From Candidatus Kuenenia stuttgartensis (GTDB lineage: Bacteria > Planctomycetota > Planctomycetia > Pirellulales > UBA1268): a DNA stretch of 37,405 nucleotides. The DNA is taken from positions 1 to 37,405 of the forward strand of contig CAMDDJ010000030.1 in assembly GCA_945891385.1 (NCBI GenBank). Reading direction: 5' to 3'. Below the pieces are notes generated by a model that was not told the origin of the DNA, searched no databases, and saw only the letters and a list, made by a program, of their open reading frames with translations. Positions 12,729-36,438 of the stretch are shown one piece after another; the stretch's first letter is position 1; the number at the start of each line of letters is the position of its first letter. A program made the position numbers and the translations under genes.

Positions 12729-13775
12729 TCAACGACGTGTGAGGCTGTCGATCAAATTCGTATCGACTGCGGGCGCAGCCTTGTCTCGCGGGCTCGCGTC
12801 CGCGTCGGTAATGGCCTCAACGGCCGATTCGGATTCGGTGGCATGCTCTTGGAGAAACGCCGCCATCGGGCCTCCCGAGCGGGCGCCGCTCGTATGCGTG
12901 CCCGCCGCTCGCGCCTGCTCGACCACCTCGAGGAACAGCGACTCCAGCCGCCGCCGCGGCTGCTCGATCGTGATCTCGTCGATGCCGTGCCGCCCGAGCA
13001 CCCCGCGGACCTCGTCGACCACGCCCACGGGAAGGAGTGGCGTCTCGATCGAAGTGCGGTCGCTCCGAGCCAGGAGTTCGTCGCATGTGCCGGCCGCCTG
13101 CACCCGTCCGCCATACATGATCGCCATCCGGCCGCAGAGATCCTCGACGTCCGACAGTTGGTGCGTGCACAGGAGGACCGTCTTGCCGCGACTGCCAAGT
13201 TCGGCGATGAGATTCTTGATCTGCCGGGCCGCAACCGGATCCATGCCGCTGGTGGGCTCGTCGAGGATGAGCAATTGAGGATCGTTGATCAGGCTCTGGG
13301 CCAGACCAACCCGCCGTTGCATGCCCTTCGAAAACTCCCCCACTGGGCGATGCTCCACTGCGTCGAGGCCTACCATCTCCAACAACTTGTCGACCCGCTG
13401 CCGGCGCATGCGGGCGGGCATGCGGAAGAGCCGACCGTAGTAGTCGAGGGTTTCACGGGCCGAAAGAAAGCGATACAGGTAGCTTTCCTCCGGAAGGTAG
13501 CCGACGTGTTTCTTCGTGGCGACATCGCGGGGACTGCGGCCGAGGACCGCGATTCGGCCGCGGGTCGGGGCGAGCAGGCCGAGCAGCATCTTGATGGTCG
13601 TGCTCTTGCCCGATCCGTTCGGACCCAGCAGCCCGAACACCTCACCGCGGCGGATTTCCAGATCCACCCCCTCGACCGCTCGTACCCGCGGACGCATCCA
13701 GAAGTCGCGGAACGTCTTGGTCAGGCCGACACACTTGATGTCGATGCCTTCCCCCGACGGGGAGTCTCCACTCAT
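12729..13775 (-). CDS. ABC transporter ATP-binding protein
   Basis: This is a 348-residue cytosolic ATPase of the ABC-2/DrrA-like class. Walker A is GPNGSGKST (51-59), the Q-loop region is VGYLPEESYLYRF (Glu where many families have Gln, as is common in this class), the signature is FSKGMQRRV (148-156), Walker B is LLILDEPTSGMDP (168-180), and the switch His is in CTHQL (205). A C-terminal extension of about 100 residues (after 240) is typical of exporters with a regulatory tail. Its ATG overlaps the stop of the HflK-like gene by 4 bp (ATGA), which indicates translational coupling. It should energise the permease encoded immediately downstream, and possibly also the divergent permease at 18.3 kb, which has no ATPase beside it. 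Confidence 0.95.
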   Translation of the reverse strand: MSGDSPSGEGIDIKCVGLTKTFRDFWMRPRVRAVEGVDLEIRRGEVFGLLGPNGSGKSTTIKMLLGLLAPTRGRIAVLGRSPRDVATKKHVGYLPEESYLYRFLSARETLDYYGRLFRMPARMRRQRVDKLLEMVGLDAVEHRPVGEFSKGMQRRVGLAQSLINDPQLLILDEPTSGMDPVAARQIKNLIAELGSRGKTVLLCTHQLSDVEDLCGRMAIMYGGRVQAAGTCDELLARSDRTSIETPLLPVGVVDEVRGVLGRHGIDEITIEQPRRRLESLFLEVVEQARAAGTHTSGARSGGPMAAFLQEHATESESAVEAITDADASPRDKAAPAVDTNLIDSLTRR

Positions 13776-15040
13776 GACTTGAACTCCGATTGTCGCTCCT
13801 TGAGCGCCTCGATCTGCTGCTTCTGCCGCTCTTTCTGGATCAGCGGGTCGCGATTGATCTGGAGTTCGAGCTTTCCGGGCACGGTGTAGAAGGTCTCGAC
13901 GTCGCCGCTCAGGATCCGCTCGCGGGCGTCCTCCCAGAGCCGTGAAAGGATGATCCGCGGGTTCCGCTCGAATTGCGGCAGCAGCCGCTCGAAGGTCTCC
14001 CGGTCTCCCTTGACCCGTTCGACGACTTGCGTGCGATAGGTCCGAGCGGCGTTGTTGATTTCCGCCACCTCCCCGCTGATGCCGATGCCATCGACGACCA
14101 GTTCATCGAAGGCGGACTCGATCTGCCGCTCGAACGCGGCCAACTCGTCGGCCGTGCCGGTCTCCCGGGCTCGCTCGTAGGCATCGAGGAGGGCGAGGAG
14201 CGGCTCGCTCGCTTCGCCTGCCGTCTCGCCGAGAATTCTCGCGCGATCCTGCTGCGCCTCGACGATCCGTCTCGAGCGGTCGGTTTCGGCGGTGGTCACG
14301 GCGTCGAAACTCCGAGCGACACTGGCGGGCGCCGAAACCTGATCGAGCGTCAGTTGCACGATCGAGATGCCGGTGCCCATGTCGTCGAGGGCAGTCTGCG
14401 CCACGGCCAGGGCTGTCTCTCGATTGACCACGCCCTTGAGCAACTCGTCGGCCGGCAGTTGGGCCACCGCCCCCACGATGCCTTGGGCTGCGGTGCATCG
14501 CACGAGCCGTTCCGCCAGCGAGCTATCGCCGACGTTTGTCACGAAGGCCACCGGATCTTCCACGCGATAGGTGACCGACCAGCGAGCGTGGGCGATGTTC
14601 ATATCACCGGTCAACAACGAGCCGTCCCGAAGTGGATTGAGGGGCCGCGCCCGTGAATTCCGAATCTGGTCGCGGGTGAGGCCACGATCGGTGTCCGCCG
14701 ATTCGAACCAAAACTCGCGGTCGAGAGCGACGGTCATCGGCCGCGTGTCGACCTTGATCACCTGCTCCAGCGGAAACGGGGCCGCGAAGTAGGTTCCACG
14801 CTCCAGAACTCGGGAGCCGGGATCGCCGACGTAGTCTCCGAACCTCAGCCGCAGGGCTACCTCGTTGGAGCCGACGCTGAAGATTCCGCTGGCCGCATAG
14901 GCGACGAGCATTGCGAGCATCGCGAATTTGAGGATCGCGAAGCTCACCCGCAGGGCGTCGGCCAAGGACTGCTGGGCGGGGTCGAACGGCGGCTCGATAT
15001 CGGGTTCCGCCGAGGAAGCCGAGGGCAGGGGTGTCGTCAT
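13772..15040 (-). CDS. SPFH/band-7 protein, HflK-like
   Basis: The product has 422 residues: one transmembrane helix near 38-55, then a band-7 (SPFH) domain starting at GIFSVGSNEVALRLRFGDYVGD. The HflK-type segments RGTYFAAPFPLEQVIKVDTR and GDMNIAHARWSVTYRVEDPVAFVTNV follow, and then a long coiled-coil-forming region. In other bacteria HflK and HflC form a membrane cage that controls the FtsH protease and organises membrane microdomains. Here no ftsH is present, and the pair is co-transcribed with an ABC transporter instead. It overlaps the HflC-like gene by 4 bp (ATGA at 15037-15040) and the ABC ATPase gene by 4 bp. The symbol hflK is withheld because three paralogous SPFH proteins occur here and orthology is uncertain. 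Confidence 0.88.
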   Translation of the reverse strand: MTTPLPSASSAEPDIEPPFDPAQQSLADALRVSFAILKFAMLAMLVAYAASGIFSVGSNEVALRLRFGDYVGDPGSRVLERGTYFAAPFPLEQVIKVDTRPMTVALDREFWFESADTDRGLTRDQIRNSRARPLNPLRDGSLLTGDMNIAHARWSVTYRVEDPVAFVTNVGDSSLAERLVRCTAAQGIVGAVAQLPADELLKGVVNRETALAVAQTALDDMGTGISIVQLTLDQVSAPASVARSFDAVTTAETDRSRRIVEAQQDRARILGETAGEASEPLLALLDAYERARETGTADELAAFERQIESAFDELVVDGIGISGEVAEINNAARTYRTQVVERVKGDRETFERLLPQFERNPRIILSRLWEDARERILSGDVETFYTVPGKLELQINRDPLIQKERQKQQIEALKERQSEFKS

Positions 15041-15978
15041 CGTCCGCCGCCCTCGAACCCCTCCGTCGCGGATCGTGACGCCGGGGCAGGGGAGGCCGGG
15101 TCGCGACGAAACAAGTCGAGAATCCCCAGGCTGTCCGCCGAGAGGACGAAGGTGGTGTTATGGTCGAGCATCTGCTCGAGCGCCTGGATCTTCCGGAGAA
15201 AGATCGCGAACTCCTCGTTGCGGGCGAAGCTAGCGTATTCCTGAGAGGCATCTCGGTCGCCCTCCGAGCGGATCGCCTGGGCGCGACGCTCGGCGAAGGC
15301 GAGGATGCGATCCCGGGCGCTCTTCGCCTCGCTGCGGATGGCAGAGGCCTGGGCCTGCCCCTCCTGCAACGCGTTCTCGGCCAGTCGCTCACGGGTCGTG
15401 ATCATGGTCTCGAAGACTTTCTCCGTGGTCGCCTCGGGGAGGACGAGTTTGGAGATCCCCACGCTTTCCACCTGCAGGCCGTAGCCGGACTCCGCCAGGG
15501 AACTCGCCAGGGCGTCTCGTGCTTCGGTCTCAATGGCCGACAGCTTGAGCTTTGCGCGATCGAGATTGACGAGCTCATCGAGGCGATAGCGGCTGATGAC
15601 TCCGCGGATTTCACGGAGTCGGCTCGACAGTTGCCGCTCCGCCTCGTCGGGATCCTTGAGTGTGACGTAGAACTTGAGCGGATCGTCGATTCTCCACGTC
15701 AGGAACGTGCGGACGATCACGCTCTTGCCGTCGGCAGTCTGCAACTCCTCGATTTTGTCTTCCAGAAGTTGAAGTCGCTTGGAGTAATGCGTCACCTTGT
15801 GGATCGGCCAGGGCAGTCGCCACTTCAGTCCCGGGGTGTTCTGCACGCTGCTTGCGTCGGCCCGGTCGAACGTCGTGCGGACGGCGACCTGGTCGTACCG
15901 AACCTGGTAACAAAACATGTACGCCAGCAGGGTGCCGGCGATGACGGTCGCGACGAGCGTCGTGAAGGAGTTTTTCAT
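15037..15978 (-). CDS. SPFH/band-7 protein, HflC-like
   Basis: The 313-residue product is close to classical HflC in length and order. An N-terminal helix (FTTLVATVIAGTLLAYMFCY) precedes YQVRYDQVAVRTTFDRAD, PGLKWRLPWPIHKVTHYSKRLQLLE, the Arg-rich SSRLREIRGVISRYRLDELVN, and VESVGISKLVLPEATTEKVFETM. A coiled coil (ERLAENALQEGQAQASAIRSEAKS) follows. The protein probably sits with its SPFH domain on the outer face of the cytoplasmic membrane and oligomerises with the HflK-like neighbour, as in E. coli. ATG at 15978 with AGGA about 9 nt upstream; 30 bp separate it from the stop of the larger SPFH gene. It overlaps the next gene by 4 bp, so equal synthesis of the two subunits is likely. Confidence 0.92.
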   Translation of the reverse strand: MKNSFTTLVATVIAGTLLAYMFCYQVRYDQVAVRTTFDRADASSVQNTPGLKWRLPWPIHKVTHYSKRLQLLEDKIEELQTADGKSVIVRTFLTWRIDDPLKFYVTLKDPDEAERQLSSRLREIRGVISRYRLDELVNLDRAKLKLSAIETEARDALASSLAESGYGLQVESVGISKLVLPEATTEKVFETMITTRERLAENALQEGQAQASAIRSEAKSARDRILAFAERRAQAIRSEGDRDASQEYASFARNEEFAIFLRKIQALEQMLDHNTTFVLSADSLGILDLFRRDPASPAPASRSATEGFEGGGR

Positions 15979-16008
15979 CGGGATGGTCCTGGTATCGGAG
16001 GCCGGAAG

Positions 16009-18060
16009 TCACTCGCCGAGGAGCGTGTCGAGGGCCGAGGCCGCATCGCTGAAATCCATCTGGAGCGAGGGAAGCTCGTGGTCCCCGGCCAGGATGAATT
16101 TCCGCCGGGCCGAGAGTCCGTTCGCCAACACTTCGAGAAACCGGCGGGTGCGGTAGTAGCGGGGCGCCTGCTCGAAGGCCAGGAGTTCCCCACCAAACTG
16201 TTCCCGGGAACTTCGCTCCCCCACCGCTCGACTCCAGCGGTAGCCGCGGGCGGCATGGATGATCTCGGCCGCTTCGCCCCTGGCCTCGCCGAGCAGCGAC
16301 TCGATGTCGAGTTCCTGGCGGGCGATGTCTCGGGCGACCGTCGCGGCCGCGTCCGGGCCGACGGAGGCATCCTGACGGCGGAGGGCGTCGAGTTCCAGAA
16401 TCGCATCGTTGATGCGGCGGCTCCGTTCGACCGACCCGGCGACGGTGGCGAGCATCGTCACGGCGGCGAGGCGACCCCGCTCGATCAATGTCTCCCGCTC
16501 CTGCTGGGCTCCGATCTGGCGGTGGAAGGCCCGGGCGACCTCGCCCCCGGGCGGTGTGAGCGAGGTGATCGAGACACCCACCACGTCGAGTCCCAGGGCG
16601 AGTGAATCGAGCCGCTCCTGGATCGCCCCGGCGAGGACGTCACCGCCGGCGGTGCGGCCGCGGGTGAGGAGCCAATCGAGATCATGGCTGGCGAAGAATC
16701 GGGTTGCCTCCTGGCTGGCGATCGATCGCACGGCGTCCTGCGGGGCCATCGAGCCCTTGAGGAACGAGACCAGGTCGCGAACCCGATATTGGACGACGAC
16801 GTCTGCATTGACGAGGGCCAATCCGGAGGCACCGGAGCCCGTGTCGAGGGCCGTGGGGTAATACTCGATGCCCAGGGTGGCGAGACGATCGTCGTCCGTC
16901 GTCCAGAGGATCGCTTCGGCGGAGCGGTTTCGCTGGGCCGGGTCGCTCGACACGGTAGTCTGAAGCACCTTGCCGACGGGAAGGGTCGCGGCCGTCTCGA
17001 TCGGCCACGGCAACTTGAAATGGAGACCGGGCGGCCGGGCAGCCGCCTGGATTTCACCGAACCGCATCACCACGCCCTGCTCATCGGGGCCGACGACCAC
17101 GATCGTCGAGAGTGCGAGCAGCGCCGCGGCCCCGAGGATCGTCAGTGGCGTCACCGCCCGGCCGAGAAGTTGGTACAGCCAACTCCGCGAGACCTCGACG
17201 CCGAATTGGTAGTGGATCAACTCCCCCACGATCTTCCCGAGCGACTCGGGGGCTGTGAGGAGTCCCAGCACTCGGCTGTCGAAGGCCGGTCGCGGCAACT
17301 CGCCCGGGCGTTTCGGGCGGTAGACGGCCAGCAGCGCCGTCAGGAGCATCTCGCCGCCCACGAGAAGCATCAGAACCGGCACCGCAACCGCCACGCCGCG
17401 GAAGAAGCCGGTGTCGCCGGCGACAGCCGCCACGATCGCACCGGCGAGAATGATGGCCGCCAGCACGAAGCAACTCATCAGGTAACTGGCACCGCCCCGC
17501 AGGAGTTGCCAGGCCCGAACCCGGGTGTAGCCGCTGATCCAGCGGGCAGCGACGAACGCCACGAACGCGATTCCCGCGGCAACGAACAACAGGCCGACCG
17601 GATTGACCCCCTCGCGGAGCGTGAGCACCGTGGCGGGATCGTCGTCACCCACGAGCTGTCCGAACCGCCAGAGCAGGCAGCCGCCGGCCACGATCAGATA
17701 GGCGGCTACCAGGAAGCTAACTCCGGAGAGGCCCCAGGACAGCAGATTCGACAGCCGGCTTCGGGACCGCTGGAGTTCGTCCGACTGGTCTCCGAAGAGC
17801 GCGGCAGACGCCGCGTCCTGCGCGGCCAATCGTTCCGATGCCAGCGACTCCCGCCGCTCCGCCTCGTACTGACCGTAGACGAGTGCCAGCACGATCCAGA
17901 TCGGAAGCCCGCCGAGCATGTGCCATGTGGCCGACTGGACCGCAGGACTTTCAGTCCAGAGCCCGGCCAGCGCCATGGCCAGGGTGAGCACTACCTGAAT
18001 CACGAGGCCGGCGATGGCAGCGGTGGTGCCTCGGCGGTATGTAAGTTGCTCGTCGAACAC
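16009..18060 (-). CDS. Polytopic SPFH/band-7 protein, first gene of the SPFH/ABC operon
   Basis: The 683-residue product is a fusion-like architecture. Six predicted membrane helices occupy about 13-35, 49-65, 110-132, 152-172, 192-214 and 224-246. A seventh at about 303-323 leads into an HflK-like SPFH domain (VVVGPDEQGVVMRFGEIQ, PPGLHFKLPWPIETAATLPVGKV). The coiled-coil region ends near the C-terminus with RKFILAGDHELPSLQMDF. Classical HflK has one helix, so the N-terminal polytopic module is an addition of unknown function. The start codon is GTG at 18060 with no strong ribosome-binding site, and no earlier in-frame start fits the promoter proposed at 18118-18171. This gene leads the six-gene minus-strand operon. 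Confidence 0.87.
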   Translation of the reverse strand: MFDEQLTYRRGTTAAIAGLVIQVVLTLAMALAGLWTESPAVQSATWHMLGGLPIWIVLALVYGQYEAERRESLASERLAAQDAASAALFGDQSDELQRSRSRLSNLLSWGLSGVSFLVAAYLIVAGGCLLWRFGQLVGDDDPATVLTLREGVNPVGLLFVAAGIAFVAFVAARWISGYTRVRAWQLLRGGASYLMSCFVLAAIILAGAIVAAVAGDTGFFRGVAVAVPVLMLLVGGEMLLTALLAVYRPKRPGELPRPAFDSRVLGLLTAPESLGKIVGELIHYQFGVEVSRSWLYQLLGRAVTPLTILGAAALLALSTIVVVGPDEQGVVMRFGEIQAAARPPGLHFKLPWPIETAATLPVGKVLQTTVSSDPAQRNRSAEAILWTTDDDRLATLGIEYYPTALDTGSGASGLALVNADVVVQYRVRDLVSFLKGSMAPQDAVRSIASQEATRFFASHDLDWLLTRGRTAGGDVLAGAIQERLDSLALGLDVVGVSITSLTPPGGEVARAFHRQIGAQQERETLIERGRLAAVTMLATVAGSVERSRRINDAILELDALRRQDASVGPDAAATVARDIARQELDIESLLGEARGEAAEIIHAARGYRWSRAVGERSSREQFGGELLAFEQAPRYYRTRRFLEVLANGLSARRKFILAGDHELPSLQMDFSDAASALDTLLGE

Positions 18061-18117: not shown

Positions 18118-18171
18118 TTGATACCCTCAGATTGTGAGCGTTCCGTGAGCCGGACGTGAGCAGCGTGTAAG
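18118..18171 (-). promoter_or_regulatory. 11-bp direct repeats plus -10 box upstream of the SPFH/ABC operon
   Basis: On the minus strand the pentamer CTCAC begins at 18160, 18149 and 18138, exactly 11 bp apart. CTTAC at 18171 continues the same phase. The last core starts 15 nt before TATCAA (18123-18118), a good -10 candidate, which would place transcription start near 18111 and give a leader of about 50 nt. No -35 box is visible where one is expected; the repeats occupy that place, as at promoters activated by PhoB/OmpR-type regulators. The same layout recurs at 22595-22648. The rest of the 217-bp gap to the divergent permease shows nothing I can name. Confidence 0.6.
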
Positions 18172-21378: not shown

Positions 21379-22533
21379 TCAGTTGCCTTCGTTCACGCTG
21401 CCGGAGGCCGACTGGCGGTTCCGGAGTCGCTTGATCCAGATCTTGTCGCTGATCTCCTGATACGACGGGGCGTCGATGCCCACGGACGTGATCTTTCCGT
21501 TCGAGTCGCGGCCAACGCCGTTTCCGATGAACGAATCGCCCTTGCCGGTCGGATCATTGTAGGAGACGGTGTCGAAGACCTTCTCCACGTGCATGTCGGC
21601 GAAGAGGATCGGAGCGTATCCACCCGTGCCGGCCTTGGTCTTCGGCTGGTGGAGCGGCTCGATGTCGCCGAACTCATGGACCTTGACGCCGGCCGCTCCG
21701 CCCAAGGTGACGTCTTCGAACGCGACGTTCATGCCGTCGTTGAAGCTCTCGACCAGGAGGTCATTGGGCTTTACGATCGTCTGACCCGCAAACGCGTTCA
21801 TGACACTGGCGACGGCGCCGACACCGGTATCGGGCGCGAATTCGGCTCCGGCACCGACGAGCGCATCGAGACCGTCACCAGCACGAGCGGGACCCATCAG
21901 GGCCACCCGCGCGGCGGTCGTGAGGGCTTGGGCAAGATGACCTTCGCTCAACGGGCCGTCTCCGTCCGAGGGGATCTTCTTGTTGGAGGCATATCCATCG
22001 ATGGCCGACGGATCGCCGCGGCTGAAGTGCCAGGTCGTGGCATAGTTCGAGTTGTAGCCGTCGTTCCAGACGTCCTTCGAGGCCTGATCGCCGCCGAAGT
22101 AGGTCTCACCGCTGACGGTTGCATCTTGGACCGCCGAGCCCCAGACGAGGGCATTGGTCTTGTTCCGTGAGGCTCCCATGTAGTCGGCGACCTTCTCGTT
22201 GACCTTGTTTCGGCTGGCGAGATCGATGGCCTTGCCCGGTGCCGTGACCTTCAGGGCGATCATGTCGGCGACCCACCCCTTTTCCCGGATGTCACCATCG
22301 CGGAGATGGTCGAACGCAGCCGATGAAAACTTCCCGTCATTCTGGGAAGCGTACACGGTAAAACCGCGGCCGAAACTGCTGAGATTGCTCGAACTGGCCG
22401 ACGCATTGGCCGAGGCTCGGGCGGACGAAAGGGCCGGCAGCAGCAAGGCGACCAGCACACCGATGATGGCGATCACGACGAGGAGTTCGACGAGCGTGAA
22501 GCCGCGTCGACTCAGTGTGGCATGACGAGACAT
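21379..22533 (-). CDS. Prepilin-type N-terminal cleavage/methylation protein
   Basis: The 384-residue product starts with a type IV prepilin signal: MSRHATLSRRG, then cleavage before FTLVELLVVIAIIGVLVALLLPALSSARA, with the Glu at +5 of the mature chain. This leads to processing by a prepilin peptidase and assembly into, or interaction with, a pseudopilus. The remaining 340 residues form a large globular domain ending with YAPILFADMHVEKVFDTV, a position similar to where the H-X9-DG block of DUF1559 proteins lies, but the motif is not intact. The open frame continues upstream to 22992. The ATG at 22533 is chosen because GGAG lies 6 nt before it and the leader is then of normal length. A strong terminator follows, and four 11-bp repeats with a -10 box precede it. 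Confidence 0.9.
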   Translation of the reverse strand: MSRHATLSRRGFTLVELLVVIAIIGVLVALLLPALSSARASANASASSSNLSSFGRGFTVYASQNDGKFSSAAFDHLRDGDIREKGWVADMIALKVTAPGKAIDLASRNKVNEKVADYMGASRNKTNALVWGSAVQDATVSGETYFGGDQASKDVWNDGYNSNYATTWHFSRGDPSAIDGYASNKKIPSDGDGPLSEGHLAQALTTAARVALMGPARAGDGLDALVGAGAEFAPDTGVGAVASVMNAFAGQTIVKPNDLLVESFNDGMNVAFEDVTLGGAAGVKVHEFGDIEPLHQPKTKAGTGGYAPILFADMHVEKVFDTVSYNDPTGKGDSFIGNGVGRDSNGKITSVGIDAPSYQEISDKIWIKRLRNRQSASGSVNEGN

Positions 22534-22594: not shown

Positions 22595-22648
22595 GTTATA
22601 GGAACCCGTTGTGAGTCGATCGTGAAAAGGGCGTGAGAATCCCGTGAG
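22595..22648 (-). promoter_or_regulatory. 11-bp direct repeats plus -10 box upstream of the prepilin gene
   Basis: On the minus strand CTCAC begins at 22648, 22637 and 22615 and TTCAC at 22626, a run of four cores exactly 11 bp apart. The last core starts 15 nt before TATAAC (22600-22595), an excellent -10. The predicted start near 22588 gives a leader of about 55 nt. This layout is the same, to the base, as the one upstream of the SPFH/ABC operon. It lies inside a 313-bp gap (22534-22846) between two divergent genes. The rest of that gap shows no further gene or element I can support. Confidence 0.65.
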
Positions 22649-22846
22649 CGAGGGAGGCTGGCGGAATCCCGAGATCCGACTGCCTGCTGGAGTCCATGGG
22701 CAGCGGCCCTATAATCGAGTGGTAGGCAGGCGATGGACCGTGTCCTCACCGCCGCGACCAGCCTCATATGTGAAGCTTTTGAGCGGCGTGAGCCCCACAG
22801 TTCGCAGCACCCGAGAGGCCACAGCATGTTTTTTGAAAGGTCTTTC

Positions 22847-24442
22847 ATGAATGCGTGTTTGACCGGGCGGAGGTGGCTTTGTGTCGCTCTCGCCGTCACG
22901 AGCGGCTGGTCGCGGGTCGCCGCGACGCCGTTCGTGGAGTACGACAGCGAGGGATCCTTCGTTGCGGCCCTGGCAACGCCCTTTTTCAACAACGAGTTCG
23001 CCAGCTTCGGGCTGGGGGGGAAGGCCTCGCCCCAGAGTTTCTCCGGGTCTGGCTATGGCTACGAGATCGGTTCGAGCGACGGCCTCTTGGTAGGGATCGC
23101 GGGATTCCCGGACTTCGCGATCCAACCGCTGAACGCCACCTCGACGTTGACGGTGACCGGATTTCTGCAACCCTCCAGCGGCTTCGGTGGACGGTTCTAC
23201 GTCACGGACATCAGCGAGGAATTTCAGCCCCAGCCGATCACCGTCGAGTACACGTTTTCCGACGCCGCGACCGTCACGAGAACCTACACGCCCGCATCGG
23301 TAGGGACGTTTTTCGGCATCGTCGCCGAGTCCTCCATCGCAAGCATCCGAATTTCGAGCGGAGGATCCTTTTTCCCCACGATCGATCAGGCGATCGTCGG
23401 TTCATCCGCTCCCCGCGACATTACGATCGATGTTCCGGCGGGCAGTCGGACTCAGGCCGAGGCTGGGTACCCGACGATTTCCACGGCCGAGTCGGTCACC
23501 AAGACCGGCGGCGGCACGCTCATTTTCGATGCGGTCAACGGCTATACCGGGCCCACGACGGTTGCCGGCGGCACGCTGAACGTGGCGAACCCTCAGGCTC
23601 TGTCGGCGACGGCCGTGACCGTTCACACGGCCTCGACCTTGGAGATCGCCTCCGGGACGACGATGCAGGGGCCGTCCGTGATCGTCGACGGTGGCACGCT
23701 TGCCGCCTCGATGGTGGCGATCGACGCGACGACCGGCATCGCTTCGGTGGCGGTGAATGCCGGTACGCTGAGTGGTGGTCCGGCCATGACCATCGGCGGG
23801 GGCGGGGCTTTCTCGCTCGCCCAAAACGCTCGTGTCACCGTGGGGGTCGGGAGCCTGTCCGTGGCGGAAGCCTCGAATGGGGGACGTCTCGATCTCGGTG
23901 CCGGGGCCGTGACGGTCGCCGCAGGCGGCATCACGCCAGCCGCCTTGCGGGCTGACATCATCGCCGGACGCAGCGGTGGAAGCTGGAGCGGGAGCACTGG
24001 AATCACGTCGAGTGCGGCGGCGTCGGCGGGTGGGACGCGAGCGGTGGGATACGTCGTGGCTGCTGACACGACGTCTACCGTCTCGTTCGCTGCTCCCGGC
24101 GATACCAACCTGAATGGAGTCGTCGACGTGTTCGACCTCGTGGCGATCAATAGCAGTGGAACGTATGGATCGGGTCGATCGGCGGTCTGGAGCCAGGGCG
24201 ACTTCAACTACGACGGCGTGACCAACGTCTTCGACCTGGTGAGCATCAATTCGGCCGGCGTGTATGGCCGAGGCAACTACTTTCCGGCAGCCCCGACGGT
24301 GTCCGGCGGAATTTCCAACGTGTCCGTCGTGCCTGAACCGGGGGTGTCGGGGCTTTCGATCATGATCGCGGCAGCTGCGTGCGGGCTGAGGGCGGCGGGT
24401 GCCCGTCGATCCTCACCGGGCCTCCGGATTCGCCCCCGCTGA
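22847..24442 (+). CDS. PEP-CTERM surface protein with autotransporter-type and dockerin-like repeats
   Basis: The product has 531 residues. The ATG at 22847 has AAAGG 6 nt upstream and is followed by a signal peptide (TGRRWLCVALAVTSGWSRVAATP), so it is preferred over the in-frame ATGs at 22733 and 22826. The N-terminal half shows no known fold. The GGGTLIFDAVNGYTGPTTVAGGTLNVAN segment is an autotransporter-associated beta-strand repeat. Two dockerin-type calcium-binding half-repeats begin near residue 418 (GDTNLNGVVDVFDLVAIN and GDFNYDGVTNVFDLVSIN). The C-terminus has the PEP-CTERM sorting pattern: VPEPG at about 495, a hydrophobic helix, then an Arg-rich tail. The last feature predicts export and processing by an exosortase/PEP-CTERM system. 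The protein is probably extracellular and structural or adhesive. Confidence 0.9.
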   Translation: MNACLTGRRWLCVALAVTSGWSRVAATPFVEYDSEGSFVAALATPFFNNEFASFGLGGKASPQSFSGSGYGYEIGSSDGLLVGIAGFPDFAIQPLNATSTLTVTGFLQPSSGFGGRFYVTDISEEFQPQPITVEYTFSDAATVTRTYTPASVGTFFGIVAESSIASIRISSGGSFFPTIDQAIVGSSAPRDITIDVPAGSRTQAEAGYPTISTAESVTKTGGGTLIFDAVNGYTGPTTVAGGTLNVANPQALSATAVTVHTASTLEIASGTTMQGPSVIVDGGTLAASMVAIDATTGIASVAVNAGTLSGGPAMTIGGGGAFSLAQNARVTVGVGSLSVAEASNGGRLDLGAGAVTVAAGGITPAALRADIIAGRSGGSWSGSTGITSSAAASAGGTRAVGYVVAADTTSTVSFAAPGDTNLNGVVDVFDLVAINSSGTYGSGRSAVWSQGDFNYDGVTNVFDLVSINSAGVYGRGNYFPAAPTVSGGISNVSVVPEPGVSGLSIMIAAAACGLRAAGARRSSPGLRIRPR

Positions 24443-29533: not shown

Positions 29534-31369
29534 CTAGGTGGTCACCCGGAGAACTTCGCTGACGCTGGTGACCCCCTCGATGACCTTCATCAGGCCATCG
29601 ATCTGGAGTGTGTGTGTGCCGTTTTTGACCGCCGCAGCCTTGAGGTCGTTGATCGAGGGCTGTTCCGTCATCAGACCACGGATGTCATCGTTGACGGTGA
29701 GCAATTCGTGAATGCCCAGGCGGCCGCGGAAGCCCGTGCCCCCACAGGCATCGCAGCCCTTCTCTTTGTAGATGTGATCGACGACGCCGGGCTTGAGATT
29801 GAATTTCTTGATCAGTCCCGGCGGCGGCGGGCAGGGTTCCCGGCATTCGAGGCACAGCCGCCGTGCCAGCCGTTGTCCCAGCACCGCCGTGATGGCCGAC
29901 TGAAGCAGCGTCGCGTCGAGGCCGAGGTCGAGAAGCCGCGTGATCGTCGCAACGGAGTCGTTGGCATGGAGGGTGGAAAACACGAAGTGCCCGGTCAGTG
30001 CGGCCTGGCAGGCGATTTCAGCGGTCTCGCGGTCGCGAATCTCCCCGATCAGCAGCACGTCGGGATCCTGCCGCAACACGCTGCGAAGAATGCTGGCAAA
30101 CGAGACGTCGGCCTGCTTGTTCACCGCGATTTGCGTGATGTTTTCCAGGCGGTATTCGACGGGATCTTCGATCGTCGTGATGTTGTGCTGTTTGGCGTCA
30201 ATTTCGCTGAGCGCCGCATACACCGTGGTCGTCTTGCCGGAACCGGTGGGGCCGGCGACGAGAAACATGCCGTACGGACGGTGGATGATCTCACGCAGCG
30301 GTTCCAGGAGTTTCCGCCGGAGACCGATTGCGTCGAGACCGGAGGACAGAATGCCGCCGGAGGTCTGGAGCAGACGGAGAACGAGTTTTTCCCCGTAACT
30401 CGTCGGCGTCGAGGCGACACGAATGTCGTATTTGTCGTCGCCGTTCAGGACGGCGAACGTTCCATCCTGTGGCCGGCGTCGCTCCGCGATGTTCATATCG
30501 GAGATCACCTTGATCGCCGAGATCACACCCCGTGCCACTTCCTGGGGGACTGGGTCGGCGTCGATCAGCACTCCGTCCACTCGCAGCCGGACTGCGTATT
30601 GTTTGTCGTGTGGATCGAAATGCAGGTCGGTAGCGCCGCGCCGCATCGCGTTGGCGAGCATCAGATGGGCGCTGCGGACATTGTCTGAAACACGGGCCTG
30701 GCCGCCAGGCTGGATGACGATCGCAGGCGTGCCGTCTTTCTTCAAAAACGTGAACGTGCCGTCGGGTTCCGCCGCCTTTGGAGTCGCGGGCTTGCTGCGA
30801 GTGTCGGACTTGCTCGGCTTGGTCGCGGACCTGCGGAGGAGCGTTCCAAGGTTACGGAACCGATCCTTGAGCGACTCAGGTGCGGCGGGCGGCTGACTGC
30901 CGACGAACGCCCGAGCCCACTGCGTGCGGCACTCAGCCGCAATGTTCTTCATGCCGCCGGGACCGAGGAATCGTTTTGTTTCCGGCACCAGCCGATCCCG
31001 GCGGCGGGCGAAGAGAAAGAGTTCGGCCGAGAGCAAGGCCGCCGCCCCGGGCAGCGCCCACCAGCCAACGGCCATCGCGCCTGCGAGCAGCGCTCCGCAC
31101 GTGCCCCCGAAGACAAGCACCCACCAATCCTCGTCAACCATCTCCAGGGCATCGACGGTGTCCCGAACCCAGTGGATCACGCCGACGAGCACCAGCACCA
31201 GCACCAGCAGGACCAGCCAGCCAACCAGGCCGAGCCAAGGGAACTGGGCGAAGGAAGGGATATCGATCGCCGCGACCGGCGGAACCCAGCCTTGGACGTA
31301 GGGCACGATCGCGAACACGCTGATATCCGTGGGGTGGCTCAGGGCCGGGGCACAGGATCGATCCGGCAC
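29534..31369 (-). CDS. GspE/PilB-family secretion ATPase with N-terminal membrane segments
   Basis: The product has 611 residues. GspE/PilB ATPases power pseudopilus or pilus assembly at the inner membrane. The C-terminal motor is complete: Walker A GPTGSGKT (373-380), Asp box EDPVEY (401-406), Walker B VLLIGEIRDRETAEIA (about 438-453), and His box HFVFSTLHANDS (461-472). The C-terminal zinc finger has two Cys pairs (CLECREPC and GCDACGG). Instead of the usual soluble N1/N2 domains, the first 125 residues carry two or three hydrophobic stretches (about 46-67 and 84-121). The start is a GTG at 31369. The gene is the first of a minus-strand cluster with the CvpA-like and TPR-like genes and is divergent from the DUF1559 gene. 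Confidence 0.92.
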   Translation of the reverse strand: MPDRSCAPALSHPTDISVFAIVPYVQGWVPPVAAIDIPSFAQFPWLGLVGWLVLLVLVLVLVGVIHWVRDTVDALEMVDEDWWVLVFGGTCGALLAGAMAVGWWALPGAAALLSAELFLFARRRDRLVPETKRFLGPGGMKNIAAECRTQWARAFVGSQPPAAPESLKDRFRNLGTLLRRSATKPSKSDTRSKPATPKAAEPDGTFTFLKKDGTPAIVIQPGGQARVSDNVRSAHLMLANAMRRGATDLHFDPHDKQYAVRLRVDGVLIDADPVPQEVARGVISAIKVISDMNIAERRRPQDGTFAVLNGDDKYDIRVASTPTSYGEKLVLRLLQTSGGILSSGLDAIGLRRKLLEPLREIIHRPYGMFLVAGPTGSGKTTTVYAALSEIDAKQHNITTIEDPVEYRLENITQIAVNKQADVSFASILRSVLRQDPDVLLIGEIRDRETAEIACQAALTGHFVFSTLHANDSVATITRLLDLGLDATLLQSAITAVLGQRLARRLCLECREPCPPPPGLIKKFNLKPGVVDHIYKEKGCDACGGTGFRGRLGIHELLTVNDDIRGLMTEQPSINDLKAAAVKNGTHTLQIDGLMKVIEGVTSVSEVLRVTT

Positions 31370-31444: not shown

Positions 31445-31491
31445 CTCACTGAAAACTCACAAACAATCTGCTCGTCATTCACGGTTACTCT
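31445..31491 (+). promoter_or_regulatory. 11-bp direct repeats upstream of the DUF1559 prepilin gene
   Basis: On the plus strand CTCAC begins at 31445 and 31456 and TTCAC at 31478, all on one 11-bp phase. The unit that would begin at 31467 is degenerate (TCTGC). The orientation matches the downstream gene at 31640. The -10 is less clear than at the other sites: TACTCT (31486-31491) and TCTAAA (31489-31494) are both possible. The region lies in the 270-bp gap between the divergent GspE-like and DUF1559 genes, and nothing else in that gap is recognisable. Confidence 0.5.
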
Positions 31492-31639: not shown

Positions 31640-32743
31640 ATGGAAGCCGGAATCCGATCGAATCGTACGCGGTTTCTGCAAGACTGCACCCCTCCCGTGT
31701 CTGGTTTCACCCTCGTGGAGCTGCTGGTCACCATCGCCCTGATCGCGGTGCTGGCCGGCCTGCTGCTGCCGGCCCTGGGAATCGCCCGAGAGTCGGCCAG
31801 GCGCAGCACCTGTCTCAACAACGCCTCCCAGATCGGCAAGTCGTTGATCGGGTATGAATCAGATCGTTCAGCGCTCCCTGGCTGGAGGAACACGGTCGAT
31901 AAATACTCCGCCTCCATGGCAGCCGATGCCGCGACCAGGCCGAAGGCGTGCGTTGCCTGGACGGTCGCCATGCTTCCCTACTTCGATCAGCGGGAGATCT
32001 TCGCCTGGTACGAATCGTTCGTCTCGTTCGACGGGGTCGATGACGTGACCAAGAAGCGAATCCCGTCGTTCGTCTGCCCGTCCTCCGTCGACAGCGCGGG
32101 AACATCGTCGCGTCTCTGCTATGCAGGCAACGCCGGGACGGGAGCCGAAGTGCTCAACGGTCGTCGGCAGTATCGAGGGGACGGCGTTTTCCTCGACGCC
32201 GCCGGCAATCTCGCGTCGGCAGCCTGGTACGGAGGAACGGCGGCTCCGGAGTACGAACCGGCCAGGTCGTCCCTGGCCTACGTCGCCGGCGGCGATGGCG
32301 CCTCATGCACGCTTTTGATCGCCGAACGCAGCGGGCTCAACTCCCCGAGCGATGTCTCGTGGGCCGCGAACCCGGCGGCGTCCCGGCCGTCCGGCAACGC
32401 GGTGCTCGAGAGTCTCGTGATCCTCCATCCCCCCGCGCTTGCAGCGGGCCGGGAACCGCCGACCGGCGTCAGGTTTGTCAATCCAACCGGCGACGACGAG
32501 GCTGCCGGGGGCGATTGGGGGCTGCGGTATCCCTCCTCCACGCATCGCGGGGGAGTGGTCGTGACATTCTGCGACGGGCACACCGCGTTTCTTTCGGACG
32601 GTATCGCGCCCTGGGTCTATTGCCAGTTGTTGACGGCGGACAGGCGAGCCCGTTCACCCAGGGCGATGCAGTGGGAGCGATACTCCGCCAAGGATGGGCA
32701 GTGGGTTCATTACATTTTCGATGAGAGCGATCTCCGGCCCTGA
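31640..32743 (+). CDS. DUF1559-family prepilin-like protein with H-X9-DG motif
   Basis: The product has about 367 residues from the ATG at 31640. This is a DUF1559 protein, a group greatly expanded in planctomycetes. A 22-residue leader ends in Gly, then FTLVELLVTIALIAVLAGLLLPALGIARESARRSTCLNNASQIG, the type IV prepilin helix with Glu at +5. The central domain is globular. Near the C-terminus the H-X9-DG motif is complete (HRGGVVVTFCDG). A GTG at 31538 would add 34 residues and an over-long leader, so the ATG is preferred; no strong ribosome-binding site settles it. The 11-bp repeat array at 31445-31491 lies upstream on the same strand. The next gene is GspF-like. The product may be the substrate or minor pseudopilin of that machinery. 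Confidence 0.9.
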   Translation: MEAGIRSNRTRFLQDCTPPVSGFTLVELLVTIALIAVLAGLLLPALGIARESARRSTCLNNASQIGKSLIGYESDRSALPGWRNTVDKYSASMAADAATRPKACVAWTVAMLPYFDQREIFAWYESFVSFDGVDDVTKKRIPSFVCPSSVDSAGTSSRLCYAGNAGTGAEVLNGRRQYRGDGVFLDAAGNLASAAWYGGTAAPEYEPARSSLAYVAGGDGASCTLLIAERSGLNSPSDVSWAANPAASRPSGNAVLESLVILHPPALAAGREPPTGVRFVNPTGDDEAAGGDWGLRYPSSTHRGGVVVTFCDGHTAFLSDGIAPWVYCQLLTADRRARSPRAMQWERYSAKDGQWVHYIFDESDLRP

Positions 32744-32895: not shown

Positions 32896-33951
32896 ATGCT
32901 CGCCACGCGTATTGGGAACCGTGAACTCGGCGTGCTCTGCGAGCGGGTGGGCATCGCGTTCGACGTCGGTCACGATCCCTACCGGATCTTTGATCGCGAG
33001 AGCGAGAACGGCGGGCGGCAACGGCGGCAGCACATGAGGTCCGTCGCCGAGCGGGTTCGCGGAGGCACGTCACTGGCCGAGGCGGTTCGGGCTCAGGGCA
33101 ACTACTTCCCTCCCAACTTTGCCCGACTGATCGAGGTCGGCGAAGAGACAGGCCGGCTGGAGACCGTGCTCAGCCGCATGGCGGGCTACTACAAGGAGCT
33201 CGCCGATCTGTCCGACGGGTTTCGCGGTGCGATCATCTGGCCGATGATCCAACTGGTGCTCGGGCTGATCGTGGTATCGGTGCTGATTTATGTGCCGGCT
33301 CTCGTGTCGCCTGAAGACGCAGAGGCCGCGGATATGCTCGGCATCGGCCTCGTCGGGCTGTCGGGGCTCGTGACGTTTTGGGCGCTTATCGCCCTCGCGG
33401 CCGGTGGGCTGGCGGGGGCGTATTTCCTCTATCGCAATGGGAAGCTTGGATTTCTCGGCGATGGTCTCATTCGCGTTCCGGTCGTAGGGAAATCCCTGCT
33501 GAAGTTTGACGAGGCGACCTTCATTCAGGCCTTGGGACTCGCGGTGGAATCGGGCGTCGATGCCTGGAACGCCGTGGGACTGAGTTTCCGGAGTTCGTCG
33601 TCGGTCGCCTTCAAGTCGCGGGCGGCGGCGGCTCAGCAGGCGATTCGGCAGGGGCGAGAGATGCACGCCGTGCTCCAGGAGACCGGCCTCTTCTCGAAAG
33701 ACACCATCGAGGCCGTCCAACTGGGCGAGGAGTCGGGGCGGCTCGCCGAGACGCTCGACAAGCATTACGAGTTCTTGCGGATGCAGGTGCGATTCGCCAT
33801 GACCGCGATCACCCAATTGGCGTCGTCGATCGTCTGGATCGTCGTCGCCGGGATCCTCATTCTGGTCATTTTCAGGGTGTTTGGCCGATACGTGACCATG
33901 CTCAGCCCCGAAGGCCTGGAGCGCATTCTGAACCGCGGCCAACCAGGCTGA
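32896..33951 (+). CDS. GspF/PilC-family inner-membrane platform protein
   Basis: The product has 351 residues, slightly shorter than typical GspF (about 400). GspF/PilC is the inner-membrane platform on which the ATPase assembles pseudopilin subunits. Two copies of the T2SSF domain are visible, each with its Gly-Glu-Glu motif: VGEETGRLETVL (81-92) and LGEESGRLAETL (276-287). Three membrane helices lie at about 112-137, 151-180 and 306-328. The N-terminal cytosolic extension of the longer homologues is reduced. The ATG at 32896 lies 152 bp after the DUF1559 gene stop, and the next gene (GspE-like) begins 37 bp after this stop, so the two are co-transcribed. Confidence 0.9.
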   Translation: MLATRIGNRELGVLCERVGIAFDVGHDPYRIFDRESENGGRQRRQHMRSVAERVRGGTSLAEAVRAQGNYFPPNFARLIEVGEETGRLETVLSRMAGYYKELADLSDGFRGAIIWPMIQLVLGLIVVSVLIYVPALVSPEDAEAADMLGIGLVGLSGLVTFWALIALAAGGLAGAYFLYRNGKLGFLGDGLIRVPVVGKSLLKFDEATFIQALGLAVESGVDAWNAVGLSFRSSSSVAFKSRAAAAQQAIRQGREMHAVLQETGLFSKDTIEAVQLGEESGRLAETLDKHYEFLRMQVRFAMTAITQLASSIVWIVVAGILILVIFRVFGRYVTMLSPEGLERILNRGQPG

Positions 33952-33988: not shown

Positions 33989-35251
33989 ATGACGACCGAT
34001 GCACTGGAGCGAGAAGTCGTGGCGGCGGCGAATGAGCCGCGGCCGGAACCGCCTTTCGACCGGGCCGTGAGCCGCCTGCGTGGCCTGAACCCTGCCTTGG
34101 GATCGTATGCGACGGACGCAGTCGATGTGATTCTCGAATTCGCCAATGCCGTCGGTACAAGCGACGTGCACATTCAGCCGACCCGCGACGGCCTCGAGGT
34201 GCGGTATCGACACGATGGCGTGTTGCACTTGTTGGGAACATTTTCACCGGGAGTCGGCTCTTCGGTCATCGCCCGGCTCAAGGTGCTCTCCGGTCTGTTG
34301 ACCTACCAGTCCGACATTCCGCAAGAGGGCCGCGTGGAGTCGCCGCGGCATGGGCGTGAGATCCGGGTCAGCACCTTTCCCACGCTTCACGGGGAACGGG
34401 GTGTGCTGCGATTCTTCGGCCATGCGCGGCAGTTCACGCTCCTCGAAGAACTCGGCAATACCGCGGACGTCACCGCCAAACTGCGGGAGGTTCTCGACGA
34501 GACGAGCGGCGCGCTCCTCATCTGTGGCCCGGCCGGTAGCGGAAAATCGACGACGCTCTACGCCTGCCTGCGGCATCTCGTTACCGATCACGATGGAGCC
34601 CGCAGCATCGTTTCCATCGAGGACCCGATCGAGGTGCCGGTCGACGGCGTTGCCCAGAGCCAGGTCGACCTATCTGCCGGATTCGACCTCAAAACCGGCC
34701 TGCGATCGCTGATGCGACAGGATCCGGAGGTGATCATGGTCGGTGAGATACGCGATCGCGAGACCGCCGAATTAGCCATCCAGGCCTCGCTGACGGGGCA
34801 ACTCCTGATGGCGACCTTCCACGCCGATAGTGCCGCCTCGGCGATCACGCGGCTGATTGAAATGGGCATTGAGCCCTTTCTCGTGCGGAGCGGCGTGATC
34901 GCCGTGGTCTGCCAGAGACTGCTCCGGCAACTCTGTCGGTGCGCCCGCGAGACCACCGACCCGGCTGAATTTCGGGGGCTCCCGGTCGAGAGGGCCAGCC
35001 TCCCGGTCGGCTGCCCGAGGTGTCATGCAACCGGCTATGCCGGTCGGATGATCATCAGCGAGTTCCTGGATGTGAGGCAGAGCGAACTCGGTCCTCCGAT
35101 CCTGCGAAAGGCCGACAATCGAGAACTCCACGACCTGGGCGTGGCACTTGGGATGAAATCGTTGAAGCAACAGGCCGTCGATCTGGTTCGGTCAGGCCGT
35201 ACAAGCCCCGCGGAAATGGCCCGTGTCTTGGGGACGGCGTTCAGAGCCTGA
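33989..35251 (+). CDS. GspE/PilB-family secretion ATPase, short form
   Basis: This 420-residue cytosolic ATPase has the second half of the GspE fold: DVHIQPTRDGLEVRYRHDG (61-77), Walker A GPAGSGKS (180-187), Asp box EDPIEV (211-216), Walker B IMVGEIRDRETAELA (249-263), a His box with FHADS (277-281), and a zinc-finger-like Cys set (CRC and CPRCHATGYAGR). It lacks the long N-terminal region of the other ATPase at 29.5 kb, so it is closer to PilT-like or minimal GspE forms, yet the Cys finger is PilB/GspE-like. GAGG lies 5 nt before the ATG at 33989. It follows the GspF-like gene and probably forms a matched pair with it. Confidence 0.92.
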   Translation: MTTDALEREVVAAANEPRPEPPFDRAVSRLRGLNPALGSYATDAVDVILEFANAVGTSDVHIQPTRDGLEVRYRHDGVLHLLGTFSPGVGSSVIARLKVLSGLLTYQSDIPQEGRVESPRHGREIRVSTFPTLHGERGVLRFFGHARQFTLLEELGNTADVTAKLREVLDETSGALLICGPAGSGKSTTLYACLRHLVTDHDGARSIVSIEDPIEVPVDGVAQSQVDLSAGFDLKTGLRSLMRQDPEVIMVGEIRDRETAELAIQASLTGQLLMATFHADSAASAITRLIEMGIEPFLVRSGVIAVVCQRLLRQLCRCARETTDPAEFRGLPVERASLPVGCPRCHATGYAGRMIISEFLDVRQSELGPPILRKADNRELHDLGVALGMKSLKQQAVDLVRSGRTSPAEMARVLGTAFRA

Positions 35252-35283: not shown

Positions 35284-35315
35284 CTCATGAAAACCTCACG
35301 CTCGTCAAGTAGCGT
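35284..35315 (+). promoter_or_regulatory. 11-bp direct repeats upstream of the pstS-like gene (weak)
   Basis: CTCAT begins at 35284 and CTCAC at 35295 on the plus strand, 11 bp apart. TAGCGT (35310-35315) starts 15 nt after the last core, the same spacing as at the two strongest sites. TATGAC at 35315-35320 is an alternative -10. Only two cores are in phase, so this site is weaker than the others, but the downstream gene is pstS-like, which is where a phosphate-regulator site is expected. Confidence 0.4.
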
Positions 35316-35451: not shown

Positions 35452-36438
35452 ATGATTCGCTTGATGATCACCTCTGCCGCCCTTGTCGCGATGACGTTGT
35501 CCGCCAACGCGGGCCGAGCAGCGGACACCGCCACATTCGAGTTGCCCGCCTACGAGAAGATTTCGGGCGAAGTGGCCGGTTCGCTCAAGTGCGTTGGCTC
35601 CGACACGATGAACAATCTGGTCGCCCTCTGGGCCGAGGGCTTCAAAAGGTTTTACCCGAGCGTGCGGGAAGGGATCGAAGGCAAGGGTTCGGCGTCCGCC
35701 CCACCGGCGCTCGCTGCAGGAACCTGCTCCTTCGGACCGATGAGTCGCGATTGGAAGCCATCGGAGATCGATGCCTTCAAGGCCAAGCACGGCTACGCTC
35801 CGACGGTCGTGCCTGTGGCTCTCGACATGCTGGTGGTGTTCGTCCACAAGGACAATCCGTTGCAGTCCCTCTCGCTTCAGCAGGTCGACGCCATCTTCTC
35901 GAAGAATCGAACCGGCGGCGCTCAGTCGGACATCCGAACCTGGGGTGACCTCGGCCTCGAGGGTGAATGGAAGGATCGGCCGATCAGCCTGTACGGTCGC
36001 AACGCGACGAGCGGTACGTATGGCTATTTCAAGGAATTCGCCCTCTTCAAGGGCGACTTCAAGACCACGGTGAAAGAACAAGCGGGGAGTTCGGCCGTGG
36101 TTCAGGCTGTGGCGACCGATCGGTTCGGCATCGGCTATAGCGGAATCGGGTATATGACGGCCAACGTGCGGGCAATTCCCCTGGCAGGCGACGCCACCAG
36201 TCAGCCGGTCGCCCCGAAGCCCGATGCGGCCTATTCGGGCGACTATCCGCTTTCGCGGTTCTTGTATTTGAGCGTGAACCACCGGCCGGGCGCGGAACTC
36301 GACCCGTTGCGGAGGGAGTTCCTCCGCTATGTACTCAGTAGCCAGGGCCAGGCGGATGTCGTCAAGGATGGCTACCTGCCGGTGCCCGTCTCCGTAGCCA
36401 CCGAGGCTCTGGCGGAGGTTGGGATCGTCGAACCTTAG
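35452..36438 (+). CDS. pstS: PstS-family phosphate-binding protein
   Basis: The product has 328 residues with a signal peptide (SAALVAMTLSANAGRAA). PstS is the extracytoplasmic phosphate receptor of the PstSCAB importer. Phosphate-binding segments are present: GSDTM (49-53), MSRD (97-100) and the GRNATSGTYGYF loop (182-193), where the Arg/Ser/Thr side chains and backbone amides bind phosphate. ATG at 35452 with GAGG 6 nt upstream. No pstC, pstA or pstB follows; the next gene is convergent and overlaps the stop by 4 bp. The gene is therefore a solitary receptor here, and the permease must be elsewhere. Some PstS-like proteins act as secreted phosphate binders rather than transporter subunits, so that alternative is open. 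Confidence 0.9.
   Translation: MIRLMITSAALVAMTLSANAGRAADTATFELPAYEKISGEVAGSLKCVGSDTMNNLVALWAEGFKRFYPSVREGIEGKGSASAPPALAAGTCSFGPMSRDWKPSEIDAFKAKHGYAPTVVPVALDMLVVFVHKDNPLQSLSLQQVDAIFSKNRTGGAQSDIRTWGDLGLEGEWKDRPISLYGRNATSGTYGYFKEFALFKGDFKTTVKEQAGSSAVVQAVATDRFGIGYSGIGYMTANVRAIPLAGDATSQPVAPKPDAAYSGDYPLSRFLYLSVNHRPGAELDPLRREFLRYVLSSQGQADVVKDGYLPVPVSVATEALAEVGIVEP

Follow-up and report, generated by a model that had tools for sequence, protein, structure and literature searches.

Predicted PHO boxes upstream of prepilin, SPFH and pstS genes in a planctomycete genome

PHO boxes described in other bacteria

The PhoP box of Bacillus subtilis and the Pho boxes of cyanobacteria are built of TTAACA-like units with a period of about 11 nt. 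In Escherichia coli, the core of the PHO box is CTGTCAT, and PhoB binds in tandem, head to tail, on 11-nt units, according to the passages of PMC4415409 that deal with the subject; a passage of PMC3348028 places the PhoB site over the -35 region. The former source also describes, for PhoP of Streptomyces coelicolor, a PHO box with the core GTTCACC, likewise in 11-nt units, that occurs in simple and complex operators (PMC4415409). A passage of PMC2996285 reports, for Caulobacter crescentus, a type II secretion locus beside ElpS, made under phosphate starvation. That passage mentions no PHO box at pseudopilin promoters, whereas prepilin genes of the planctomycetes studied here carry the predicted box themselves. 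PhoR-PhoB is widespread in lake Planctomycetes according to a passage of PMC6461901, which gives no box. Among the matches listed from the open-licence PMC literature, we found no description of a planctomycete PHO box, and the single match for planctomycetes together with PHO boxes was a review of Agrobacterium lipids. An earlier, sequence-only reading of the DNA analyzed here knew of no described planctomycete box of such form.

The planctomycete element shares with the E. coli PHO box its 11-nt direct repeats, the TCA-to-TA distance of phoA and a location upstream of pst and phoB-like genes. At phoA, TCAC is followed by TATAGT, whose first base lies 14 nt past the T of TCA, and the planctomycete TA likewise lies at 14 nt. 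However, the planctomycete core is CTCAY (CTAAC in other families of the order) and not CTGTCAT: our 56 training sites have CTCAY, and GTCAY pairs in the 36 closest pstS homologues show 2-3 mismatches. Also unlike the E. coli box, the prepilin arrays reach four or more units. The likeness to the Streptomyces PHO box that had been suggested earlier holds for the TCAC core and the 11-nt unit, but not for the flanking bases; planctomycete pst promoters have GAAA after the core, and the phylum and the target genes differ as well. The boxes of B. subtilis and cyanobacteria resemble the CTAAC form of the order's other families, and differ from that of the window's family, which has C at core position 3.

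Arrays and genes of the window

The window is the whole stretch of DNA that we analyzed, 37,405 nt from a genome labelled Candidatus Kuenenia stuttgartensis (contig CAMDDJ010000030.1). Two arrays and the genes behind them were read as follows.

22611..22648, minus strand: site A, four 11-nt units with cores CTCAC at 22648, CTCAC at 22637, TTCAC at 22626 and CTCAC at 22615
22595..22600, minus strand: -10-like TATAAC of site A, beginning 15 nt after the start of the last core
21379..22533, minus strand: prepilin-type protein A behind site A, 384 aa (Pfam N_methyl, 1.3e-07)
18134..18171, minus strand: site B, four 11-nt units with cores CTTAC at 18171 and CTCAC at 18160, 18149 and 18138
18118..18123, minus strand: -10-like TATCAA of site B, beginning 15 nt after the start of the last core
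16009..18060, minus strand: SPFH/Band_7 protein behind site B, HflK-like, 683 aa (Pfam Band_7)

On the minus strand, site A reads CTCACGGGATT CTCACGCCCTT TTCACGATCGA CTCACAACGGGTTCC TATAAC from 22648, and site B reads CTTACACGCTG CTCACGTCCGG CTCACGGAACG CTCACAATCTGAGGG TATCAA from 18171. The sequence-only reading had reported four cores 11 bp apart at site A, a TATAAC 15 nt after the start of the last one and no -35 box. Direct reading bears out all of this: core positions and period are as reported, TATAAC begins at 22600, and a 17-nt spacer would place ACGATC at -35, so site A has no hexamer of the kind that an ordinary sigma-70 promoter carries about 17 nt before its -10. A recurrence with the same spacing had also been reported at 18118-18171. 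Its 11-nt period and 15-nt distance are indeed the same, but the first core deviates (CTTAC), and therefore three of the four cores of site B are perfect.

The SPFH protein scores under the cut-off of the HflK model. It belongs to a minus-strand cluster (12729-18060) of three consecutive Band_7/SPFH genes followed by an ABC transporter ATPase gene, which site B would drive. A gene for a PATR-repeat protein (22733-24442, plus strand) is divergent from prepilin A, and arrays in other genomes also precede PATR-repeat genes (L026, L146, L149).

Two further candidate boxes lie among the following genes.

29534..31369, minus strand: second type II/IV secretion ATPase, GspE-like, divergent from the site D gene (Pfam T2SSE)
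31445..31482, plus strand: site D (candidate), with CTCAC at 31445, CTCAC at 31456, a degenerate slot at 31467 and TTCAC at 31478
31640..32743, plus strand: GspG-like prepilin behind site D (TIGR02532 above cut-off, TIGR01710 below)
32896..33951, plus strand: type II secretion F-type protein (Pfam T2SSF)
33989..35251, plus strand: type II/IV secretion ATPase, GspE-like (Pfam T2SSE)
35284..35311, plus strand: site C, perfect two-unit box CTCATGAAAACCTCACGCTCGTCAAGTA upstream of pstS (matrix score 24.9)
35452..36438, plus strand: PstS-family phosphate-binding protein, 328 aa, the genome's second pstS (TIGR02136, 222.1 bits, cut-off 206.6)

The other pstS copy of this genome is on contig C11. The start of the GspG-like prepilin, ATG at 31640, was chosen by us. 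At site D the nearest TAAAC lies 13 nt, not 15, from the start of the last core, and the TA is out of phase; we regard the site as a weaker array that is perhaps a PHO box.

Recurrence of the pattern and its targets

We scanned for the arrays with degenerate patterns, using reversed patterns as controls. YTCAC-N6-YTCAC-N6-YTCAC-N10-TATNA with at most 3 mismatches gave 6 matches in the 3.77-Mb genome and 2 when reversed. Only A and B matched with 0 mismatches; the other four have 3, and one of these is site A itself in a shifted register. With at most 1 mismatch, three CTCAC units gave 48 matches versus 5 reversed in 22 genomes of the genus, and three CTCAY units plus TA gave 75 matches, in 42 of 72 family genomes, versus 4 reversed. 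At the same tolerance, the YTCAC form was found 9 times in the 72 family genomes and once in 74 genomes from the order's other families (0 reversed). The strict two-unit form, CTCAYNMAWNNCTCAYN10TA, had 38 matches in 30 of the 72 family genomes, and 0 when reversed. It had been considered that the arrays might be no more frequent than chance allows; the genome, genus and family scans instead show an excess over the reversed-pattern controls.

One promoter family, CTTGACTCAC...CTCACGCTACATTCAC, mimics the array pattern, with TTGACT and TACATT at promoter spacing. As a different promoter type, it was excluded from the regulon (7 of the 48 genus matches, and 3 of the 61 sites into which the family matches were merged). 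It is conserved in L021, L022, L028, L031, L035 and L053, and is followed by a conserved CACAACAT(C/A)TTGCGATAGCA stretch, which we take to resemble an NrdR box; the gene behind it presumably encodes a ribonucleotide reductase, from the look of its N-terminus.

The PstS gene behind one array (L135) provided a test of the phosphate link. PstS relatives are present in 64 of the 72 family genomes. We evaluated cores and TA upstream of 64 close pstS homologues, excluding matches that begin beyond residue 60 of the query and those with under 60 nt of upstream DNA: 29 are perfect, and 20, 3, 9 and 3 have one, two, three and four mismatches, respectively. At most one mismatch is therefore seen in 49 of 64, compared with shuffled values, per 70 regions, of 0.05 at 0 mismatches and 0.1 at 1 mismatch. 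Distant PstS paralogues scored 3 to 5, and 0 of 6 had at most one mismatch. Sites from other genomes, 56 in all, yield the consensus CTCAY-GAAA-NN-CTCAY-AAT, the TA lying at +15. All of sites A and B and the pstS boxes have at least two 11-nt direct repeat units, and at A, B and most pstS boxes the repeats lie at a constant distance from the -10 and stand in for a -35. Most pst promoters have two units, and prepilin promoters often three or more.

Of the 38 strict-form sites, 27 precede pstS (67-341 nt upstream of the pstS match) and 2 precede pstC-like genes; prepilins that combine N_methyl and DUF1559 domains follow another 8, and a lamin-tail/PATR protein follows the last. The enrichment at pst genes for which the sequence-only reading had proposed a check is thus present, at 29 of 38 sites. 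One of the pstC-like genes was compared with its counterpart in the pst operon of the window's genome: identity is 51% over 494 aa. In that genome the strict form occurs twice, before pstS of the pstSCAB-phoU operon and, at 35284, before the second pstS. The operon's pstA, pstB and phoU score above their model cut-offs, and its PstC-like protein just below that of PstC. The PstC-like protein of the window's family, of about 880 aa, has a long N-terminal part that precedes the permease region (L231, 12186-14849). Genome G018 has a tandem pstS pair with a perfect box before each gene (L232, 5732-7956).

Among named records, we collected 57 PstS loci and dropped two (L392, too short; L435, without an N-terminus). 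All 36 evaluated homologues with at least 70% identity have a core pair with 0 or 1 mismatches, a set that is not independent, because 36 of the 57 loci are DNA already among the scanned genomes. The records nearest to the window's PstS are planctomycetes from lake metagenomes. As a positive control, the gammaproteobacterial L424, L425, L427 and L430 show perfect GTCAY pairs in the same place and no CTCAY pair; some of these control records are titled Klebsiella, and are probably mislabelled.

A close PstS was found in 22 of 40 genomes from the order's other families. In 24 pstS upstream regions from these families there are 10 perfect CTMAY pairs with TA at +15 (shuffles 0) and 2 with a score of 1 (shuffles 0.06). 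Eight of the ten perfect pairs are CTAAY, one is CTCAY and one is mixed. Two of 16 pst regions contain a close phoB relative, in both cases with CTAAY pairs upstream.

A matrix built from the pstS boxes of other genomes ranked site B first in the window (28.7) and site C second, followed by position 29712 (11.6), site A (9.6) and site D (7.3). In 20 shuffled windows the maximum was 10.4, and sites A and D are thus inside the shuffle range. The match at 29712 lies inside a gspE-like gene and was taken as chance. Given its low matrix score, the case for site A rests on its four cores, their phase and conservation.

With regard to conservation, 21 A-like prepilin upstream regions, including that of A, were available as distinct sequences from 30 loci. 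Thirteen score at most 4 (shuffles 0.1) and 11 at most 3 (shuffles 0), and the 11 best have the TA in phase, as at site A. The remaining 8 show no trace of an array at the thresholds used. The sequence-only reading had been prepared to give way if the arrays were not conserved at orthologues; they are present at 13 of these 21 prepilins, though not at the other 8, and the reading was not refuted. A related-locus search with prepilin A as query found no relative. Among 28 SPFH relatives of the site B gene, including B, a two-unit box with a score of at most 2 was found in 9 (shuffles 1.1) and was absent from 19; the TA is in phase only in B and one other.

We merged the 75 family-scan places into 61 sites, of which 57 could be located in the DNA examined. 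Four sites were left out, another two stop within 90 nt, and for the G047 site we used an identical string from G069. A prepilin-type N-terminus lies within 700 nt downstream of 31 of the 57 array sites; the genomes that bear arrays are related, and such target counts are therefore not independent events. Other genes behind arrays encode lamin-tail proteins, PATR-repeat proteins, amidohydrolases, a small one-genus family, sigma-54 activators and one PstS. The window genome has 60 prepilin matches, 3 of which were dropped as being without a readable motif. In the 57 readable upstream regions, a perfect core pair occurs in 3, site D included, and a fourth prepilin has an array of three units with 2 mismatches (each 0 in 10 shuffle runs). 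The idea that every prepilin has the array was rejected on this count of 4 in 57.

Several target genes recur. CTCAC arrays precede a sigma-54 activator gene in two genomes (L140; L378, G000:C34:8553), and the G000 contig of L378 also holds an array-bearing prepilin (L341). In one genus, an array precedes a small protein of about 127-140 aa, in one case longer (L142, L143, L144, L145, L146, L147, L128); the member searched has no Pfam match, and in several cases the same contig carries array prepilins too. In two genomes of a single genus, the genes behind CTCAY arrays include amidohydrolases with an RR-type N-terminus (L118, L158).

A PhoB-like regulator and alternative readings

The NCBI PhoB model gave one clear best response regulator in each of 10 genomes, at 245-259 bits, with the next best at 198.3. 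All ten are under the curated cut-off of 296.2, which just 2 of 14 passed in control genomes. A histidine-kinase motif lies downstream of the phoB-like gene in 10 of 10. Nine of 10 carry a CTCAY pair, one mismatch allowed, in the 610 nt before the gene (shuffles 0.86 per run), the arrangement expected of autoregulation; no core pair was found upstream of 7 other OmpR-type regulators (shuffles 0.46). The TA at +15 is missing from all 9 of the phoB-like gene boxes. With the DNA-binding domain alone, the best PDB matches are E. coli PhoB (1qqi, 3.9e-16) and another OmpR-family regulator (8hml, 4.3e-16); for the full-length protein, the best solved relative is MtrA and not PhoB.

The recognition helix, SVDVQVAGLRKKL, is identical in all 10 PhoB-like proteins. 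It has S194, Q198, A200 and G201, where E. coli has T, H, R and R, as well as K184, while V197, R203, T217 and R219 are retained. Base-specific residues in PhoB are T194, V197, R201 and R219, according to a passage of PMC3264566. A changed helix was considered as the reason for CTAAC versus CTCAC, but this is unsupported: G089, which has CTAAC boxes, shares the helix of G000, so the helix does not account for the C/A difference at core position 3.

We conclude that A, B and C are very probably PHO boxes, the predicted operators of PhoB, and that D perhaps is one too. The PhoB/OmpR-type activated promoter proposed for site A in the sequence-only reading is supported by the excess, the conservation and the association with pst and phoB-like genes. 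The phosphate link, at that stage a mere resemblance, has gained support from the boxes at pst genes and the core pairs at phoB-like genes. Several points count against PHO boxes. The phoB-like boxes lack the TA at +15, and scores of 3 or 4 are seen at 12 of the 64 close pstS homologues. Arrays are lacking at 8 of 21 A-like prepilins and 19 of 28 B relatives at the thresholds used, and just 4 of 57 prepilin upstream regions in the window's genome have one. The PhoB-like proteins score under the PhoB cut-off and at full length match MtrA best, and site A is inside the shuffle range of the pstS matrix.

If these sites are PHO boxes, phosphate shortage would lead the histidine kinase encoded alongside to phosphorylate the PhoB-like response regulator (G000:C3:105778-106449). 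In its phosphorylated form, this protein would occupy the 11-nt units in head-to-tail order, two units at most pst promoters corresponding to one dimer, and four at A and B to two dimers. The promoter-proximal unit would replace the missing -35 and recruit the sigma factor to a -10 starting 14 nt after TCA, as at E. coli phoA. We infer this binding, phosphorylation and activation, and also that prepilin, SPFH cluster and extra pstS are expressed more strongly under phosphate limitation.

It might be that only the pst boxes are PhoB sites, and that a different member of the OmpR family, with overlapping specificity, recognizes the prepilin and SPFH arrays to control surface or secretion functions and not phosphate. 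These genomes have several OmpR-type regulators, arrays at prepilin genes often exceed the pst boxes in number of units and in variety of linkers, and site A is low on the pstS matrix. However, core, period and -10 phase are shared, 8 prepilins lie behind the strict form with its pst-type linker, the matrix score of site B is like that of a pstS box, and the window itself contains a pstS with a perfect box. We consider a second regulator unlikely. It is less probable still, and by some way, that A and B bind PhoB while leaving the genes behind them largely or wholly unaffected. PHO boxes have been reported at genes without obvious phosphate regulation (a passage of PMC4415409), and PMC10294691 reports many inert PhoB sites in E. 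coli, but A and B have the layout of an activator site, with fixed -10 phase and no -35, as do the pst genes and E. coli phoA, and this layout is conserved at related genes. Least credible of all are chance repeats in GC-rich intergenic DNA before ordinary promoters, which would fit the shuffled-window range of A and D on the pstS matrix but were rejected on the reversed-pattern and shuffle controls.

Taking the sites as PHO boxes, we can tentatively propose that the window is a phosphate-scavenging secretion island, although we are readier to doubt this than to accept it. PhoB would turn on a type II-like pseudopilus, the SPFH-ABC cluster and the extra PstS under phosphate starvation; prepilin A, the GspG-like prepilin and GspE/F would form a dedicated pseudopilus, with which the extra PstS would work.

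While this kind of element is known, the box sequence, the host group and the prepilin targets appear to be new. The consensus for the planctomycete order, CTMAY units 11 nt apart with the -10 at +15, provides a PHO box with a testable regulon. Because the PhoB-like protein has Gly for Arg201 while repeat spacing and promoter phase are as in E. coli, the change in specificity could be dissected in vitro. The predicted boxes also suggest that this group of lake planctomycetes may switch on some little-understood surface and secretion genes at phosphate shortage. A subset of the DUF1559/prepilin family is tied to predicted phosphate control, and if the island proposal is true, part of this expanded planctomycete family would act at the cell surface, capturing or digesting phosphorus compounds.
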